NCBI GenBank assembly: GCA_014904845.1
Contig: MU119314.1
Coordinates: 1-64,000, forward strand
Direction: 5' to 3'
DNA: 64,000 bases
Origin: Acephala macrosclerotiorum
Lineage: Eukaryota; Ascomycota; Leotiomycetes; Helotiales; Mollisiaceae
Each line of letters opens with the position of its first letter. The stretch's first letter is position 1. Below, piece by piece: positions 2,306 through 58,757 of the stretch. The position numbers and the translations under genes were made by a program. The notes beneath the pieces are model-generated. The model was given only the letters and a program-made list of their open reading frames with translations. It made no database searches and was not told the DNA's origin.

Positions 2306-3442
2306 TCATTCAATATCACTCTCGTCGTCTTCCATCACTGGTGGTTCCGGGGGGCTTTGACCGAGCAGAGCGAAGTTGACGTCGAAGCCCACATCCTCAC
2401 TAACAGCACTGGGGATTTTCATGGTGACTTCTCCTGTCGTCCCGAGCGAATTTTTGTCAGTCGTCTCAGACGAGTCGCTTCCACGAGATTCAAGAAGCTC
2501 AGAATGGATATGGACCTACATGCTCTGTTATTAGAGTATTCGGAGGTGGTTATGACTTCGGGGTACAGAAAGAAATGTACTAACCACCATCCCAAAAATT
2601 TGTCTGATCTTGAAACGAAACCCACTTGCAAACACCACCACCTCCTCATCTGGAGCCTAGAGTCGTTTCGTTGGCAGCTGTATTTTCGGATCATCCGCGA
2701 CCTTGTTGAGTACGTACCTTGCCACTATAATCCTTCCACCCGCTAGATGATGTCCCAACGAACCAGCCAGCTTCAGTCTCAATACCAAGCCCGTCGGTAG
2801 CAGTAGCATTCAACCCCACTGATATTTTCTTCGATTTATCTTGCCACGCGTTCAAAGTGCATTTCTTCGTGCTGTATGTGTAGGTTATGATCGTGAGACC
2901 ATGATCCTCGATCTCCTCGCTTCGTCTACAACTCCTGAGAATATCCACGTTATCTTGGACCCATCGCTTAAAGGGACTCTCGTAGTAATAACCATCTCTA
3001 TGAACGGGTTTGGAGGCTATAAGCACTGCGCCGAAATCATTCGAGGATTGGTACTCGAAGAAAGCTTTTCCTGATAATGGGACACCAGCCTGTTCTCCGC
3101 TGAATACAATCAGCCTCTGGGTCCTTGGTGGGATGAGGTCAAAGCCTGCCTTGCTTTCACAGAAGCTGTAATGTTGGTTTTGGTAACCTTGATGGAGGGC
3201 ATGGCTCTCCAATTTGTGACCGGATCATCGCCTGCACGCTCGAGCTCTTCTTCAGGCTCCTTCAGATTTAGCTTCTTCAATGAGACTGGATCATCAAGCC
3301 AAGCGATAGGCTGCCACTCTCCAAGCTCGTTCCAATATCCAACTGCGCCTGGCCGCAAAACTTTGGTAGAGGCGGGTTTATATAGCGCATAGCCATATGG
3401 GTGATTGATCATTTGATCGGCGTACAGATCGTGAAGTTTCAT
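2306..3442 (-). CDS. Putative gasdermin-like pore-forming protein (four exons)
   Basis: Four exons are proposed: 3442-3161, 3089-2718, 2656-2585 and 2515-2306. All introns are GT-AG (61-71 nt) and all junctions are phase 0, giving 311 residues. The N-terminus has an HPYGYALYKP block and a PGAVGYWNE block; the middle has a HGLTIITYTYSTKKC strand pattern; the C-terminus is a short Pro/acidic tail ending DDESDIE. This order resembles fungal gasdermin-like proteins of the HET-Q1 type, which are about 270-300 residues with a short inhibitory tail removed by a protease. The divergent neighbour encodes a CHAT protease-like protein, a partner class known to be linked to fungal gasdermins. If correct, the cleaved form would insert into membranes during regulated cell death. 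No signal peptide is seen. The family call is inference; the exon frame continuity is direct. No frameshift or stop breaks it. Confidence 0.58.
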
Positions 3443-3828
3443 TTTGAAGATATAGAATTAAGAAGTGCCCAGTATCAAGCGTTAGGTCGACAGCGTTTTA
3501 ACAAGGAGCCTGAAGGTGCAAGATATGGCTTGAACTGGGGATGGATTGTTAGGTAAGTGAAGGCTTCCAAATCTCACAGCACTTGAACTTGTGATTAGCT
3601 CATGCGTGATGATCTGTCTGCCAAGCGTGAAGTTTTCTTTGCTTTTTTAGCTTCATTGGTGAGGCCTCGGTTCATAGTTATTATTAGATAGCCAATTATG
3701 CTTCGTGCAGATGAGCCCCTGCATGGCATGATCATGGCCTGTCGAACATCATATTTCTACGCTGCGGCTGTCAAACTCACAATACTGGGAAAAGGATGAA
3801 AAGAATTCTGTCATAGACGGATCTGATA
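3443..3828. promoter_or_regulatory. Shared divergent promoter of the gasdermin-like/CHAT pair
   Basis: This 386-bp gap separates the start codons of two divergently transcribed genes, so both core promoters must lie here. No distinct operator was recognised. AT-rich stretches around 3640-3700 could hold TATA-like elements for either direction. Confidence 0.4.
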
Positions 3829-6800
3829 ATGGACAAGCTTCCAGGAGATATCGAGGCTTCAGCAGAGCATATCCACGACCCCGTTCGCAAAAGCTACTTT
3901 ATCGCGAGGCGGTATATAGACATATATCGTCACAGTGACGATCGGGACGAGCATTCCTCCGAGAACGCAATTGTTCAACTGCGAAATGCTGAAAAGCTCG
4001 GCGATGGAGTAACCCCAAGGGAAATCGCTGAATTATTTGTCGATGTCTACCTTGAACGTCTATTTCGCAGAGGTTTGAAGCAAGATGCAGACGAGGCAGA
4101 AATATACATTCGTATCATTCTTGATACCCGACCAGGTGACTACACCTACCTCTCAAAACTTCTAGCCATTCTTCACATCCGATACGAAAGGACATGTTCC
4201 AGAACATACGTTGACGAATCTCTTAACTTGGTTGAGAGTGCGATTGTCGACGTCCAAGCCGATGACCCCTGCCTGCTGGTGCTGTTGGCAGATTGTGGAG
4301 TTGCACTTCTCGACCTTTCTGAAGTTAGTAACTCATTTTCGGCTTTAGAAATGGCAGTCAGTATCCTGCGCACCGCCTCAGGAATGATGAGCCCCGCCTC
4401 GGGAAGGGATTGGTTGTTTGCCCGAAAGACTCTTGCTGAATCGCTGCGACGTCACTTTGAAGCCACTGGTCGGAAAGAGGAGCTCATTGAAGCACTAGCA
4501 ATATTTGACGATGATGACGCGGAATTGAAGCTTCTGCCAAGAGAAGTACTCGATTGTTGCATGATTCGTCTTCGAATTTTGCATAATCTTTGGCAGCTCG
4601 ACCCGAATGGAGAATCACTGACTAAGTTGAGGAAGGAATATACCGAGCTCACCACCATTCTCAAACTCAATCATCTAAGCCCTGTTTATGCAGAACTATT
4701 GCAAGCAAGCGGCAGAGCTTTGAATGAAAGTTTCTTCTCGACCAGCCAGAGACACGGGCAGGGATTCAATCTTATCAAATTGGGATTTCAATTTGCAGAG
4801 AAATTGCTTTCGTCCTGGAACGAAGAGCCTCAAAAGGAGTCCTCAGCGCTAGCATCGCATCTTTACCAGCTCGGCAAAGCTTATGAACTTCAATTCGACT
4901 GGTACTCTTCTCCAAATGCCCTCAAAGAAGCCTCCGATATCATGAAGCGGTGTTGTCGTTTGACAAGTCCCAATTCGACACACCAAGGTCTTCGATCGGC
5001 ATCGATGGTTAAACTACTTCGCATGGTGTCTGATCTCATGTCTGATTCTGACACATCTGTTGACGAATTGTCCACTTCATCCCTTGCTACGGTTCTATCA
5101 AAGGCTTTTCCAATTTCACAAGCTGCCAAGGCGGATGTGGCAACAGAGCTAGGCTATACCGCCATCAGACTCTTTGAGAAAGGCCACGATCCATCGCTTC
5201 TAGATCGAGCAGTTTCACACTTCCGGAAAGCGATCGAATTCTCGTCTACAAACGCCCTTTCTCAAGCGTATTCGTTGCAGCGGCTTGCCGAGTTTCTGAG
5301 GAAACGAGGAGATAGCGGTTCACTAGAAAAAGCGATGGAAGACTTCGCAGAAGCAGTAAGCACTTTGAATCACCTACAAGAATTTTGCAAAAAGAAGAAC
5401 ATCAATCTTCAGGATAGTCGAGACACCCTCGGAGATATACATGCGAGCCAGTATAACCTATCCCACGACAAGAGTTTTGCAATAAAAGCTATAGATGCAT
5501 GGCGTAGTTTATTTCAGAGCGCTGATGGGATTCCGATCGCAAGACTAGCTGCGGCAACGAAAGCAGCGGCGATGCAAAAGAAGATAACCGGAGATCCAGA
5601 GAAAGCAGCTCAAGTCTTTGAGGATGTCATCAAGACCCTCCTTGAGGTTATGTCGGACTCTGACGTAAGATCAGAGCAAATATGGAAGATACGCATGTTC
5701 AGTCCACTTTCGGCACACGCCGCTAGCTTGGGTCTTATCGCATCTCGGTCCCCTGAAGAAGTTCTCCAGTTGCTAGAGCGCGGAAGAAGCATGATTTGGA
5801 ACCGTTTGCTTGCTCGAAAAACAGACATCAAGGCTCTAGAGGAAAAGCACCACGATCTAGCCCAGGAATTTCTAAGGATACAGAAATTGCTCTCCAAGGA
5901 AGATAATAAGCCAGACAAAAACGCTTCAACTGAGCTCGCCCTCCTACAAGAAATTGACTCCAATCGATATCACCTCACGCACCAATACAACAGACTGATT
6001 GCAAAAATACGAGACCAACCAGGATATGAGGATTTTATGCTTCCGGAATTCTCTCCACAAGAACTCCGCCAGTGCGCTGATCAGGGGCCAATCATAACGT
6101 TCGTTCATAGTAATGTCTGCCACGCAGTCATTTTGACTTCAAAGGGAGCATACACCATAGAACTGCAAGATTTTGATAAATCAGCGTGTGAAAGACAATA
6201 CGAGCAGTTCAAACGATATTTGAATCTCCGAAGAAGAGCCCCTGAAGACGCACGCCTTGTACTCGAGAGTATTTTAATTTGGATGTGGAAATCCGCAGCG
6301 GAACCAATCATTTCTTTGATCAGGGAAAAGCTCAATATAGCTTCGCCGGGTGTTCGGCCGAACCTATTACCACGGGTTTGGTGGATCTGCAGCGGGTGGA
6401 TCAACACATTCCCAATTCATTTGGCTGGAGACCACAAACGAGCTTTGGATACGGGGGAGCCATGTACTGTAATGGACATGGTCATCTCATCGTACACACC
6501 CACCATCCAGGCTTTGGGATACTCTCGAAGAACAATGGATCGGATGACTTCTAAGAGTTCTCCAGGCCTACCATCCGCAACACTCATCAGCATGAAAATA
6601 ACCCCAAACAAAGCGCCGGATCTAGTCAATGCACCCATGGAAGTACAACAGGTTGAGAAAATTTTGGAATCCCAATACAAGGTTCTTACAATGGGGTACC
6701 CACGCGGCACATTCCAAGAAACGGCCACAAGGAAAGCCGCTATCTACGCGCTCAGCAATTGCAGCATTGCCCACTTTGCATGCCACGGCGAGGCCGCAGA

Positions 6801-7200
6801 GAAAGATCCTTTAGAGAGCCGACTCTGCTTATATGATTGGAAGGCCCGACCACTCAAAGTTGGATTGTTAATGCGGATGGACTTCAAGCACTGCCAGCTA
6901 GTCAACCTGTCAGCTTGCGACATGGCGGTGAATAGGGATCAACTGCTCCGCGAAGAGGGTTTACACATGTCTGGAGCATTTTTGATGGCCGGTGTGCCTA
7001 ATGTGATTGCGACCTGGTGGCCAATCTTAGATGCTTACTCGGCGAGAGTCTCGAGAGACTTTTATACCGGGTTGAAGAACGAGGAGGGGATTTTGAATAT
7101 TGCTAATGCTGCGGAAAGTATGCACTGTGCCACAATGAGCATGAGAAATGAAGGACTTAGTCCGCTGATCTGGGGGGCATATGTGCACTTTGGTGTTTAA
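3829..7200 (+). CDS. TPR-CHAT domain protein (caspase-like protease family)
   Basis: A single-exon gene of 1,123 residues. Residues 1 to about 750 are helical with TPR-like repeats (for example around 150-260 and 440-560). The C-terminal third, about 840-1123, matches the CHAT domain, a caspase-related fold. The predicted catalytic His lies in FACHGEA (His986) and the Cys in LSACDMAV (Cys1030). The usual GVPNVIATWWP segment follows. In bacteria and fungi, CHAT proteases cleave partner proteins, including gasdermins, when the repeat region senses a trigger. The target here is plausibly the divergent gene 386 bp away. Both catalytic residues are present and there is no stop, so it looks functional. 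Fungal TPR-CHAT proteins are common and most are uncharacterised, so the sensor role is inference. Confidence 0.85.
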   Translation: MDKLPGDIEASAEHIHDPVRKSYFIARRYIDIYRHSDDRDEHSSENAIVQLRNAEKLGDGVTPREIAELFVDVYLERLFRRGLKQDADEAEIYIRIILDTRPGDYTYLSKLLAILHIRYERTCSRTYVDESLNLVESAIVDVQADDPCLLVLLADCGVALLDLSEVSNSFSALEMAVSILRTASGMMSPASGRDWLFARKTLAESLRRHFEATGRKEELIEALAIFDDDDAELKLLPREVLDCCMIRLRILHNLWQLDPNGESLTKLRKEYTELTTILKLNHLSPVYAELLQASGRALNESFFSTSQRHGQGFNLIKLGFQFAEKLLSSWNEEPQKESSALASHLYQLGKAYELQFDWYSSPNALKEASDIMKRCCRLTSPNSTHQGLRSASMVKLLRMVSDLMSDSDTSVDELSTSSLATVLSKAFPISQAAKADVATELGYTAIRLFEKGHDPSLLDRAVSHFRKAIEFSSTNALSQAYSLQRLAEFLRKRGDSGSLEKAMEDFAEAVSTLNHLQEFCKKKNINLQDSRDTLGDIHASQYNLSHDKSFAIKAIDAWRSLFQSADGIPIARLAAATKAAAMQKKITGDPEKAAQVFEDVIKTLLEVMSDSDVRSEQIWKIRMFSPLSAHAASLGLIASRSPEEVLQLLERGRSMIWNRLLARKTDIKALEEKHHDLAQEFLRIQKLLSKEDNKPDKNASTELALLQEIDSNRYHLTHQYNRLIAKIRDQPGYEDFMLPEFSPQELRQCADQGPIITFVHSNVCHAVILTSKGAYTIELQDFDKSACERQYEQFKRYLNLRRRAPEDARLVLESILIWMWKSAAEPIISLIREKLNIASPGVRPNLLPRVWWICSGWINTFPIHLAGDHKRALDTGEPCTVMDMVISSYTPTIQALGYSRRTMDRMTSKSSPGLPSATLISMKITPNKAPDLVNAPMEVQQVEKILESQYKVLTMGYPRGTFQETATRKAAIYALSNCSIAHFACHGEAAEKDPLESRLCLYDWKARPLKVGLLMRMDFKHCQLVNLSACDMAVNRDQLLREEGLHMSGAFLMAGVPNVIATWWPILDAYSARVSRDFYTGLKNEEGILNIANAAESMHCATMSMRNEGLSPLIWGAYVHFGV

Positions 7201-8480
7201 GTCGGGCGAGGGGAAAATTGGGGTTTTAGAGGTGTAAAATGAGAAGTCAGATTAATATATATAACGCAGCTGCCCAAGGTGCCTTCTTTTTCTTTGTCAA
7301 TCAGCACAAACGTACATAATTCCTAGTTCTTCTGAAGAGCTTTGTATTTTAATTTTCTATTTCTCGGCATCATATCTTAATCGAGCAAATCTAGGGGGAA
7401 GAGGGGCTTGTGAAAAATTTCAAGCCCCATCCCACATCAAACAAGTGAATCATGACCTCCATACAAAAGACCAAGAGCAGGTGGGATAAGCTTCAGCCCT
7501 TGTTAATTCATCTTAAGTGGCTAACATACACCAGCTCTGCCAAAACATACTAGCAAGCTAACTTAAGACAATAGGCAGTTGAATCTCAGTGAGCGAAGCC
7601 GAGCTTTGTGCACGGGAATATGTCGCCTAATATATTAACAACAGTTTGTTTGATTATTAACAGCAATCAACCTAATTACTTGCACTGCCGCCTTTATTGT
7701 AATGTTTTAGCATATGTCAGAAGATGAGACAAAGTAAAAAAAAGAGAGAGAGATTCAAAACTTGACAACACCCATGTATAGTTGACAACAGTTTCTTCCA
7801 TCCCTACAACTTATCTAAATTTGCATTCAGACAGTCACATCTCGCTACCTAAACAACGTCTCACACCACAAACTTTCAAAATCCTAAAAAGTATGAATAT
7901 GCTATGTGTGTCTAGGGACGAGGACCTTCTTGTGATTGACTTCAGTTCCGCTTGTTATTGTGCGTGCGACGGACGTGGCGGTGAGGTTGGTAGGTATTTA
8001 TAGTCTTTGAACATATAGAGAGAGAGAGGTAGAGGTCTTAGACTACGTATCCTTCCCCTTTTGCCTTCTGCAAGTGAATTCTCTAAGCGTGAATTTCTTA
8101 GAAGGGTCAAGGGGTGGATGGGATAGGGTAATACAAGCCTACTAAAAAGGCTTTGTGCATTACTTCACTCCTTATCTTATACCGTGTCTCTTTTCCAAAC
8201 CCAGAAGTAACTCACTAAGTGAATCCATCCTCATATTCACCCTCCCCTCACATGATACCCCGTGCCCTTGCCTCAGGCCGCTACATGCGAAATAACGGCC
8301 CTCTCTCAACGGCGGAAGATCCTCATCAACCTGTCTGGATTGGGATCATAAATACTAGAATCCCGATCCGCGAAAAGATACATTTTACACACCGGCCGGC
8401 TTTGCTAGAACGTACTAGAACTCGGGGTCTAGAAATAATGCGTGCGTGTTTGTGATTGTCTTATGATATTGGCAGTGATT
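7201..8480. other. Intergenic stretch, no gene recognised
   Basis: AT-leaning spacer between the CHAT gene and the FunK1 remnant. It contains short GA dinucleotide runs near 7742-7752 and 8017-8030. The small open frames here show no domain, no start context and no intron support. Confidence 0.5.
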
Positions 8481-9345
8481 TGTTAGTTGCTGACAGCAAT
8501 GTCTTTAAAATTCTCGATTTTGCGGATGTAAAGAGATGGGATGAGCTTGAAAAGGATGGGCCTTGCGAGATATTAAACGACAGTCCTTCAATGCAGCCCT
8601 CCAGCGCGGCAAGTAGAGCTGCTCGGGAGCCAGCCTTGTAGATGGGCTTCCCATAATCACGAAGGATGACACGCCGATGCACTGGATTTGGTAGAGCATT
8701 GCTACCGGCCTTCGTCGGAGATGTCGAATAGGATCGCTTGCTAGGCGGCAAAGGTGCGCCAATTTGACTCGATGACCGCTTCAAGCCAGCGGTGCTACTA
8801 CTACGACCTTTCCGTGCACAAGCTGTACTCGTGCTTGGGGATATCATCGAACGTCCCGACCGGTAGTTTTCCGCCTTTATAATATCCAGTCCCTTCCGAA
8901 CATTGCTTCGAACGTCGTTATCCGTACCGAGGACTCGGATAATCTCATGGTGATAGTATCGAGCCACGTTAACAACGCTCTTTTCAGTCGCCTCTCGAAG
9001 CAGCTCTCTTTTTTCTTCACGCTTTGTGTACTACTGAGAGTCTTTAATAATAAGCGGAGTCTGCGGGTCTCCCTCGCGATATGCCTTCTAGCAAGTCGTT
9101 GCCCGGCCGGATATGCAACGCGCCCGCATCATCAACCCGTCGATAATGAGCCGCTCCGTAGAACCATTCCGTTCAATCTCAATAAACCGCTAGCTATTTT
9201 TTGTGATAACTGTAGAATCGAACTCAAATTGTTCCTCATTTATCAAGAGAAACGCGAGGATTGTGGATACGAACCGCAGGCTATCTTCGTTCACGTCGAA
9301 CCGTTCGAATGCGATTTCCCCTAGTCGGTCAAATTCTTAAATTTT
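8480..9345 (-). pseudogene. Decayed FunK1-type (fungal) protein kinase
   Basis: Reading from about 9345 down to 8510 on the minus strand gives FunK1 family landmarks in order: an ERFDVNEDSLRFVSTIL-like segment, an RFIEIERNGS...RLIIDG segment, EATEKSVVNVARYYHHE, DVRSNVRKGLDI and finally RRVILRDYGKPIYKAGSRAA with ALLAALEGCIEG. FunK1 kinases are large (over 600 residues) fungal-specific kinases expanded in mobile and subtelomeric regions. Here the frame is broken by stops and shifts upstream of 8967. The C-terminal lobe beyond the CIEG helix is missing, so no active kinase can be made. The 8461-8967 stretch is the longest surviving open part. Confidence 0.75.
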
Positions 9346-9600: not shown

Positions 9601-11060
9601 TTAATAACCTTCGTCGATTTGTTTGACTCGTTTTATAATTTTTTGCAAATTTTGTAAATTATTTGTTTATTTATATAATTTAGTTTAAAATATTTTTTTG
9701 TTTTGCGTTTTTGAATTATTAGTTTTATTTATTCTCTTTATAATAAAGTGAATTATTGCTTTTTTTATATTTTTTAAAACAATTTTAAATATAATTTCGA
9801 AATTTGTTATATGTTTAAAGAATATTGTATAAAAATTTGAGATATTAATATATATAGTTTTTAGTTTTTTTTTAAATATATTATTTATATATTTGTAATA
9901 TTCGAAAAAGTTTATAAAATTATTTGTATTATATAATTAAAGTATTTATAAAAAGAATAATAAAAAGCGCGAAAGTAATATAAACTTAATAATAGTATTA
10001 TAAACTTTGTTTTAAATAAGTTTATCGAATTCGTTATTTAAAATAGTGTTTAAAAAAAATTTAACGCGATCGAAATCGAAGTTATTAGAGATAATAATTA
10101 AACTAAGTCTGGATAAATCGATTAAAAGGATTTTATTACTATTGTTAAAATAAAATAAACGAGTAATAAAATAAATTTGTAGTATTAATAAAAAATTAAA
10201 CGCGAGATTAAAAAAATTTGTATATTAATTAAAAAAATATTTTAATAAAATTAATTTATATTATTTTTATTAATTTAATTTAATATATTTAAAGAATATT
10301 CGATATATAATTTTTTATAAATTGAAATAAAAAAAATTGTAAAATGTATTTAATTTATTATTAATAAAATTAGTTTTAATAATATTAAATTATATTTATA
10401 TAAATATAATATTAGTTTTTAAAAAAAAAATAAAAAAAAAATAAAAAAAAAAAAAATAAAAAAAAGTAATAATGTTTTATTTATTGAAATTATTTTAATA
10501 TTTTTTAATAAATTAAAATTTTTTAATTTTTTAATTTTGATTTAATTTTAAATTTAAAAAAATTATTAATAAATATTTAAATAATATAAAAATTGAATAA
10601 GAAAATAATATAATATATTTTATATAAATAAAAGATAAAAAAAAATATATAAAAAAGTTTTTTTATTTTTTATTATAAAAATTTAAAAAGTAAAAAAAAA
10701 AATGTTTAATATTAATAATAATAAAAATAAATAAATAATATATTTATTTATAAAAAATTTATATTTTATTTATATAATATATATTAAAAATTTAATTATT
10801 AATTATTAATATTAATAGTAATAATTTAATAAAGTAATTATTATATATAATAATATTTAAAAAATGTAAAAAAAAATATTAGTTTTAATTATTATTATTT
10901 TATTTTTATTTTTAAATTTTTTTTTATTATTTTTTTTAATAATATTTTATTTAATATTAAATTAGTATTATTTAATAAATTGTAAAATTAAATTATTTAA
11001 TGTATTTTTTAATAAAAAAGATTTAAAGTTAATTATAATAAGAACTTTTATAAAAGATTA
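9600..11060. repeat. Extremely AT-rich, RIP-like block
   Basis: About 1.45 kb made almost wholly of A and T, with poly-A runs (for example 10420-10465), poly-T runs and TAA/TTA strings. No open frame survives. In Pezizomycotina such blocks usually derive from transposable elements mutated by repeat-induced point mutation (C to T). The source element cannot be recognised by eye. Confidence 0.75.
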
Positions 11061-11464: not shown

Positions 11465-12902
11465 ATGGGAAAGCCTGGAGGCATGGTAAATATTGAATAT
11501 GCCCTTTATGATCTAGCAAGCTAACTAACTCCATCAAGATTGAGTCTATGTTAAAGTACCTCGATCCAAATCAGTCAGCAGCCCGAGATAAACGGCTCCA
11601 ACTCTATATTACCAAGAGCCGTGAAATGATAGATGAGTCAGTGGCCGAGATAGCAGCTATTAGAGCAGATTTTACGCAATGGAAAAATCTCACGACGAGC
11701 CTGCTGCGCGGTTTGGAGGAGAAAGCCGGTAACTCACCCACCTTGAACCAGATGCCTCGAAGCGACTGATGGCCTTAGCTACCAACGAGCAACAAAAGAT
11801 AAAGACCAAAAATATGCTGGAGGAGCATGAGATGGAGAAGAAAAATAAGGAGGAAGAGTTGATGCAACAGCGCAAACTGCTACAAGAGTATGAAGCAAAG
11901 TATCAAAAAGCATTCGCGATATACCAAAAGCTCGTCAACAATCTACCAAGTTGGTCACTATGCCCATGAGCTGCTGAATTTTAACTGATGTAGTCGGCAA
12001 TTTAGCAAGCATTGCCGGGATTGGCTCTGCTATTGCAGCAGCTACCGCTGTAGGCCTGGCCCCAGAATTGTTTGTTATCGGACTCATAGGAGGGGGTATG
12101 CAATACATGTTCCTTGATACCACCCGGCAGAAAGGGGCATCAGCAGTTCAGAGGCTTGAACGAGAGGCAACAAATCTGAGGAACATACTGCTGCAGCTGT
12201 CAGGAGAAGCAAAGTCAATTGTGAGTGTTGCAACAGAACGTAGTTCCTGAAGCTTAGTGTTAACAAATACCTACAATCAAGGCCGGACTGGCCGGTATTA
12301 TTCGACAAGCCCTTAGCCGCTTGAACATCTTGCAGCAACAAATTGATATGTTCATGGAATTCTGGATCAAAATTCAAACGATGATCAAAATAGCTACTGA
12401 TCGCAGAGATTGGGTCTTCAAGCCTGAGCAGACCAAGGAGGAGCGGAAGGAGGAGTGGGAGGATGCGGACTTGAAAAGGGTACGATTCTACAAGCATGAC
12501 TGGTTATGCCCACGTGCTCATTTATCCCCAATAGGAAATCCTATCGGAATCTTATGTCATGAAGACGCGATTTTTACTCGCCTCGAAGGCCTCGGCACTC
12601 TATAACGAGGTTTCCGAGCTGTTTGTGATCCCGGGTTTCAGCTGGCTTACAGAAGTCCGTCTTACAGATGGATCCGACGATATGGCAGAGAAGATGGTTG
12701 CGGAGATCGAGAGGCAGAGAACCGAGATATGCAAGGGGGCGGAGAAGCACATAGCGCTGGCAAGTGATTATCCTAGACATTTCGTTCTCGCCTGTGACTA
12801 ACCACTGAGTCCCCATAGAGAGAGGATGAACTGAAGAAGAGTTTGGATACTTTGGCTCGGGATTCAGCCGAGTCATTTAGAAAAGTCGCTCCAGATCTGT
12901 AG
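11465..12902 (+). CDS. Long alpha-helical protein with central hydrophobic segment (ClyA-like architecture?)
   Basis: Seven exons give one continuous frame of about 371 residues: 11465-11485, 11539-11728, 11779-11949, 11994-12220, 12282-12479, 12535-12763 and 12823-12902. Introns are GT-AG, 44-61 nt, with good branch sites such as CTAAC before 11539. The product starts with amphipathic helices and a Lys/Glu-rich coiled coil. A Gly/Ala-rich hydrophobic stretch of about 35 residues follows (GIGSAIAAATAVGL to FVIGLIGGG), then more long helices including MFMEFWIKIQTMI, and a C-terminal coiled region. This layout resembles helical pore formers of the ClyA/Cry6 type, but only in architecture, so the function is unproven. 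It appears intact although decayed DNA lies on both sides. The first exon and the 44-nt intron are the least certain parts. Confidence 0.55.
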
Positions 12903-58249: not shown

Positions 58250-58757
58250 GTAAAATCGGCACTTTTATCTTTAATAATAATTTATTTAATAACTTACGAA
58301 TAATATCACTTAAAAATTTAATAATATATTTTTTAAATATTTGTTTATAAGATATATTAATATTAATTGTTTTTTATTAATAATTTCATTATTTATTTTA
58401 TATTTTAATAAGTAATTTTTGCTCGAAAAAAGCGAAAATTAAGCGAAAATCGATGAAAACCTAAAAAATACTATATTTTACATATTTTAAATTTTTTTAA
58501 TAAATAATAATAATTATTTCAAATAAATTTTATATGTATTTCAAATATAAAAATTTAATTTTAAATTAAAAAACTTTAATTTTCATAAAAGAAATAATAT
58601 ATTATTTAAAATTAATAATTAATAAAAAAATTTTTAAAAAAGGAATTTATTAATTCATTAATTTAATATTATATTATTAATATTTAAATCGAAAAAGAAA
58701 TAATTAAACTTAATTTTCATATAAATTATATTTTAATTAGTTCGGTAATTATTAAAT
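58250..58757. repeat. AT-rich, RIP-like insertion
   Basis: About 500 bp of nearly pure A/T with no open frame, resembling the block at 9600-11060. It sits inside the oxidase pseudogene, so it is probably a mutated transposable-element fragment. Confidence 0.65.

Follow-up and report, generated by a model that had tools for sequence, protein, structure and literature searches.

A head-to-head pair of a CHAT protease gene and a candidate gasdermin-like gene near a telomere of Acephala macrosclerotiorum

Why should a gene encoding a CHAT protease and a gene encoding a small protein stand head-to-head beside a telomere in the fungus Acephala macrosclerotiorum? The two genes lie in the opening 64 kb of contig MU119314.1, which is 169 kb long, in a host assembly (GCA_014904845.1) of 69.66 Mb in 778 contigs; these 64 kb are called the window below. 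The telomere repeat (CCCTAA)n opens the contig (window ~1-95), and both genes are within 7.2 kb of it. The small gene occupies the minus strand (3442-2306) and faces the CHAT gene on the plus strand (3829-7200). An original prediction, made from the sequence alone, described these genes as a gasdermin-like and TPR-CHAT pair forming a candidate two-gene cell-death system. Its gene order, its 386-bp gap, regarded as a shared promoter, and its intact CHAT frame were all confirmed from the window sequence. We consider it probable that the two genes are a fungal pair consisting of a protease and the pore-former that it activates.

To ask whether the arrangement recurs, we start from the relatives of the small gene. 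Searching the host genome with exon 2 (query 2718-3149) returned three places: the window and two further copies, on C47 (E 3.9e-6) and C15 (E 1.7e-5). Searches with the C47 and C15 copies recovered the same three loci. At C47, the small gene is head-to-head with a TPR-CHAT gene (CHAT E 2.5e-31; TPR_2 barely above its cut-off, 27.4 versus 27 bits) across a gap of 326-401 bp, according to which start codon is used. At C15, it lies on the minus strand (2971-104 of locus L020, which is G000:C15:8000-17500) and faces, across 596 bp, a gene starting at 3568 on the plus strand. In that partner, a domain with the motifs YYSGHA and DCCNAGA is joined to a HET domain (HET E 3.2e-21).

The YYSGHA/DCCNAGA domain found no caspase match in Pfam or the PDB. 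Counting itself, it has 28 genomic matches at E ≤ 0.1. When two of the matching loci (E 1.5e-9 and 1.4e-8) were scanned, one piece of each barely passed the Peptidase_C14 cut-off, with 21.9 and 22.6 versus 21.4 bits. Motif and indirect homology thus point to a caspase-type gene. With this assignment, 3/3 small-gene copies are head-to-head with a caspase-type gene, namely a CHAT gene in the window and at C47 and a caspase-like gene with a HET domain at C15.

The genome has 15 CHAT places. Were the genes placed at random, at least two of three small genes would have a head-to-head CHAT gene within 500 bp with a probability of ~9e-9. With two of the three copies facing a TPR-CHAT gene and the third a caspase-like gene with a HET domain, the proposal that the CHAT gene and the small gene form a functional unit is well supported. 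We also built a tree of 18 CHAT domains, comprising 12 of the 15 genomic places (three missed the E-value or length filter) and six bacterial domains. The C47 CHAT belonged to a five-member group with support of 98/97, the window CHAT lying outside it, and the two were joined in 0% of 200 bootstrap trees. That the linked CHATs do not group, together with mutual identities of only 23-28% among the three small proteins, speaks against a recent block duplication.

Two observations temper this picture. The window CHAT is a long branch, making its place in the tree unsure. Moreover, 13/15 CHAT places had no small-gene neighbour in the flanks scanned with the three-copy profile, which extended unequally from <1 kb to ~8 kb per side, so a CHAT gene alone does not predict such a neighbour. 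The pairing may be old, with losses beside the remaining CHAT genes, or may have arisen more than once, and both histories would point to function.

It would be most surprising if the linkage were a leftover of subtelomeric shuffling without functional meaning. Shuffling would agree with the position of the window pair within 7.2 kb of the telomere, and an inverted-repeat insert in the C47 CHAT gene implies that some pairs are perhaps not intact. Nevertheless, two of the three small genes share the head-to-head layout with CHATs from different parts of the tree, and the third faces another caspase-type gene. The proximity to a telomere, which was first read as fitting fast-evolving and polymorphic recognition genes, holds for the window but not for the C47 copy. 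The latter is ~90 kb away from the closest end of its contig, which shows that members of the small-gene family need not be subtelomeric. Separately, the C47 CHAT gene contains an AT-rich stretch between its two open halves, resembling a miniature inverted-repeat transposable element with 18-bp inverted ends (~4700-4960 of locus L019, on G000:C47; ends placed by eye).

The CHAT gene of the window and the region separating it from the small gene comprise the following features.

3443-3828, no strand: intergenic region, 386 bp, with a divergent start codon on each side; same arrangement at C47 and C15
3829-7200, plus strand: TPR-CHAT protease gene, single open frame, 1123 aa
3829-6288, plus strand: N-terminal region resembling helical repeats, residues 1-820, a putative sensor; TPR matches below cut-off only
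6355-7194, plus strand: CHAT protease domain, residues 843-1122 (PF12770, E 4.7e-28)
6784-6786, plus strand: His986, catalytic, invariant in 7/7 aligned CHAT domains
6916-6918, plus strand: Cys1030, catalytic, invariant in 7/7 aligned CHAT domains

The CHAT half of the TPR-CHAT label is secure, with PF12770 scoring 98.9 bits against a cut-off of 24. Both catalytic residues named in the original prediction are present and invariant across the alignment of the window domain with six bacterial-plasmid CHAT domains. The TPR half is weak, as all TPR matches in this protein stay under the Pfam cut-offs. Its N-terminal repeats are partly and weakly alignable with the same region of plasmid-borne actinobacterial CHAT proteins (17 plasmid records). 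The CHAT domain itself is 31-36% identical to Streptomyces and Rhodococcus plasmid CHAT proteins (loci L002-L005). In a midpoint-rooted, weakly resolved CHAT tree, these plasmid proteins fall among the fungal ones. It is possible that CHAT genes have been exchanged between actinobacteria and fungi.

The small gene is predicted to have four exons encoding 320 aa, as listed here in the direction of transcription.

3161-3442, minus strand: exon 1, 94 aa, start codon at 3442-3440; coding-type codon use scored over 3188-3442; 32% identity to the C15 copy over residues 2-89
3117-3160, minus strand: intron 1, 44 nt, likeliest of several candidates; best profile fit, weak donor GTGAAA
2718-3116, minus strand: exon 2, 133 aa, encoding the core of the putative pore-forming domain; related copies at C47 and C15
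2657-2717, minus strand: intron 2, 61 nt, GTACGT..TAG; matched in position by an intron of the C15 copy
2585-2656, minus strand: exon 3, 24 aa, encoding EEVVVFASGFRFKI, the final strand of the putative domain; weak codon-use signal
2516-2584, minus strand: intron 3, 69 nt, GTTAGT..TAG; clear splice signals
2306-2515, minus strand: exon 4, 69 aa plus stop codon, encoding the acidic C-terminal tail, a candidate inhibitory segment; coding-type codon use, tail motif common to the C47 and C15 copies

This four-exon structure, already part of the original prediction, is upheld as a predicted model. Introns 2 and 3 are straightforward, and the EEVVVFASGFRFKI segment of exon 3 has the conserved counterparts EKYVVFFSGVMIKV (C15) and DDWVIFVEGLKYR (C47). 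Intron 1 was chosen by the relatives' profile. Of 19 GT-AG candidates, 14 were scored against a profile built from the C47 and C15 copies only. The 44-nt intron (3160-3117) reached 88.1 bits and the runner-up 84.4. An earlier model with a 38-nt intron (3187-3150) was dropped because it scored 80.4 versus 88.1 bits.

The difficulty at intron 1 raises the alternative that the small gene of the window has decayed, with its reading frame interrupted where exon 1 should join exon 2. No strong splice donor exists in 3240-3090, the frame shifts near 3150, and the candidate introns are short or poor in donor. A broken frame was once entertained for want of a visible intron 1, and it became less likely since the relatives favour the 44-nt intron: with it, the product aligns more closely to the C47 and C15 copies than with any of 13 alternatives. 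A 48-nt intron lies nearby in the C47 copy, though its position is not identical. Exons 1, 2, and 4 also have coding-like codon use, and exon 3 shows it weakly, in keeping with an intact gene. On balance, we regard decay as quite improbable.

Is the small protein a gasdermin? We think this likely, mostly on linkage. Two features typical of fungal gasdermins are present. The first is clustering with protease genes, seen in 3/3 copies. The second is a short segment beyond the N-domain, here a ~70-residue tail that follows the last strand and carries a motif common to all three predicted proteins (EDVGFDVNFALLG, EEGMEYEVELESFG, and VDGVDYTVECEFWG; exons joined by eye). In hhalign's local mode, the three-copy profile aligned with human and mouse gasdermin D over 186 collinear columns with a score of 19.8 (probability 1.1%), and the alignment extends to the same last strand. 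This score was reached by 0/60 column shuffles and 1/38 real-protein decoys (protein pieces, with plasmid coding regions containing stops excluded). In the structure model of the C15 copy (predicted local distance difference test, pLDDT, 40), the elements run helix, two strands, helix, three strands, two helices, strands. The gasdermin N-domain has this same order. The local profile match and shared tail fit a gasdermin, without proving one.

Several results count against this identification. The small protein had no gasdermin match in Pfam, NCBIfam, PADLOC, or PDB sequences, and a PF04598 search of the host genome found none. Pairwise alignment to gasdermin D was no better than shuffles. In the local profile comparisons, the decoys averaged 13.1 and the best of them reached 25.9. 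Single copies scored at decoy level for the window (12.6) and C15 (11.7), and only C47 was high (19.4). Human gasdermin D alone gave 16.1, the level of the second-best decoy. A default-setting profile comparison yielded 16 columns with a probability of 0.6%, and in global mode 27/60 shuffles were as high as the real score. The two structure models had pLDDT of 36 and 40, the better being that of the C15 copy from a five-row alignment. Foldseek searches with these models, whose confidence is too low to be informative, returned no significant match, and no gasdermin was among the 50 matches listed per search.

Other searches for relatives of the small protein were likewise negative. Comparing the three-copy profile to the PDB gave two chance-level matches, the best (E 0.018) being a phage capsid protein, and scans of viral and genome contig collections found no small-gene relative. 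The upstream neighbour of a Rhodococcus CHAT gene proved unrelated. A match to a Streptomyces plasmid protein (E 0.5), with no annotated CHAT gene adjoining, was taken as chance.

The missing library and fold matches in the searches run, and a profile match that is weak and comes mostly from the C47 copy, suit another explanation: the small gene may encode a CHAT- or caspase-linked partner of a different fold, such as a substrate, inhibitor, or adaptor that is cut or restrained by the protease and forms no membrane pore. CHAT genes are also head-to-head with C14 caspase genes in the same genome, which implies that CHAT partners need not be pore-formers. Conversely, the local match to gasdermin D is collinear and ends in the same last strand, and the size, tail, and protease linkage agree with fungal gasdermins as reported in reviews. 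We judge a partner of another fold unlikely.

Comparison with known systems places the pair in a familiar setting. About 80% of fungal gasdermins are clustered with protease genes and 19% are near CHAT genes, with repeats among the receptor architectures (PMC10197012); a second review gives ~17% as CHAT-linked (PMC10989679). In Podospora anserina, a TPR-CHAT protease activates the gasdermin of its own two-gene cluster (Clave et al. 2022, via PMC12881547). Like that cluster, the window has adjoining genes, one for a CHAT protease with repeats and one for a gasdermin-like protein; unlike it, cleavage and the gasdermin fold are here predicted only, and the likeness is one of description rather than sequence. 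Because a TPR-CHAT/gasdermin pair has already been tested in Podospora (PMC12881547), the suggestion of a candidate new system was too strong. The pair is probably a further example of the known fungal protease-gasdermin kind.

Other systems resemble the pair in part. HET-Q1/HET-Q2 of P. anserina shares the logic of a protease-activated pore-former, with HET-Q1 shedding ~5 kDa C-terminally (PMC12881547). However, HET-Q2 belongs to the subtilisin-like serine proteases, and HET-Q1 and HET-Q2 are idiomorphs of a single locus (PMC12881547), whereas here the partner is a CHAT protein rather than an S8 serine protease of the HET-Q2 type, and both genes adjoin each other on the same chromosome. RCD-1 of Neurospora crassa is also a short fungal gasdermin-like protein, of 244-257 aa (PMC12881547), but is described as acting by the pairing of two alleles, independent of cleavage. 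The hetB gene of Aspergillus fumigatus has one allele encoding a CHAT protein of 1,327 residues that acts in incompatibility; its alternate allele encodes 149 residues with no known domain, and in the part of that article drawn on here a gasdermin link is not established (PMC11138114). Bacterial gasdermin systems similarly cluster a CHAT or caspase-like protease gene with a small pore-former gene (PMC10197012, PMC12881547). In contrast, the nearest bacterial CHAT relatives among those inspected, at six plasmid loci (L002-L007, from Streptomyces, Rhodococcus, Nostoc, and Bradyrhizobium), had no small-gene relative when searched with the three-copy profile.

By analogy with the systems told in reviews, we propose a mechanism for the pair. 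The CHAT protein would be a receptor-protease whose repeat-like N-terminal region keeps the caspase-like CHAT domain inactive until a trigger arrives. Active CHAT would then cut its partner between the putative pore-forming domain (~residues 1-250) and the ~70-residue acidic C-terminal tail. The freed domain would assemble in the plasma membrane and cause cell death, conceivably in the service of allorecognition or defence.

Further protease genes are paired elsewhere in the genome. TPR-CHAT and Peptidase_C14 genes are head-to-head at C184 (G000:C184:33837-39271), with 437 bp between first methionines, and at C357 (G000:C357:32948-39786), with 701 bp. They are tail-to-tail at C159 (G000:C159:20269-23222), and at C33 CHAT and C14 genes share one strand, ~2 kb apart. 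Taken with the C15 pair, this collection suggests that the genome assembles modules from CHAT, C14, HET, and gasdermin-like genes. A more speculative and rather doubtful extension is that interchangeable head-to-head modules form a protease cascade running from CHAT via C14 to gasdermin, and that HET-domain proteins feed into the same pore by another route. The CHAT/C14 and caspase-HET/gasdermin-like pairings appear less ordinary than the CHAT/gasdermin kind. A mostly open-access literature search for them listed PMC10197012, PMC12881547, PMC11138114, and an unrelated paper, which is no proof of novelty.

The remainder of the window offers several observations apart from the pair. An OrsD-like fragment (PF12013, E 1.1e-17) lies at 628-1035 on the minus strand, <1 kb from the telomere repeats. 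A Pkinase_fungal piece (PF17667, E 9.9e-25) at 8464-9030, minus strand, covers only profile positions 181-299 of 387. Exon-like frames at 11500-12600 on the plus strand contain a hydrophobic stretch and a long helix-like sequence, perhaps representing another membrane-active protein; a Pfam search of these frames gave nothing over the cut-off. Two AT-rich islands, at ~10400-11060 and 58260-58690, are mutually similar at about 70-76% identity. G+C content is 26% at 10-12 kb and 35% at 58-60 kb. An Rfam search of the window had no match.

If the proposed reading is true, the pair would be an added example of caspase-type control over a gasdermin-like killer in fungi. The genome would then hold two diverged sister arrangements (23-28% identity) that are useful for asking what CHAT receptors sense. 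The C15 pair would directly connect two large fungal incompatibility families, the HET and gasdermin-like proteins, and the CHAT/C14 pairs would suggest the existence of protease cascades.

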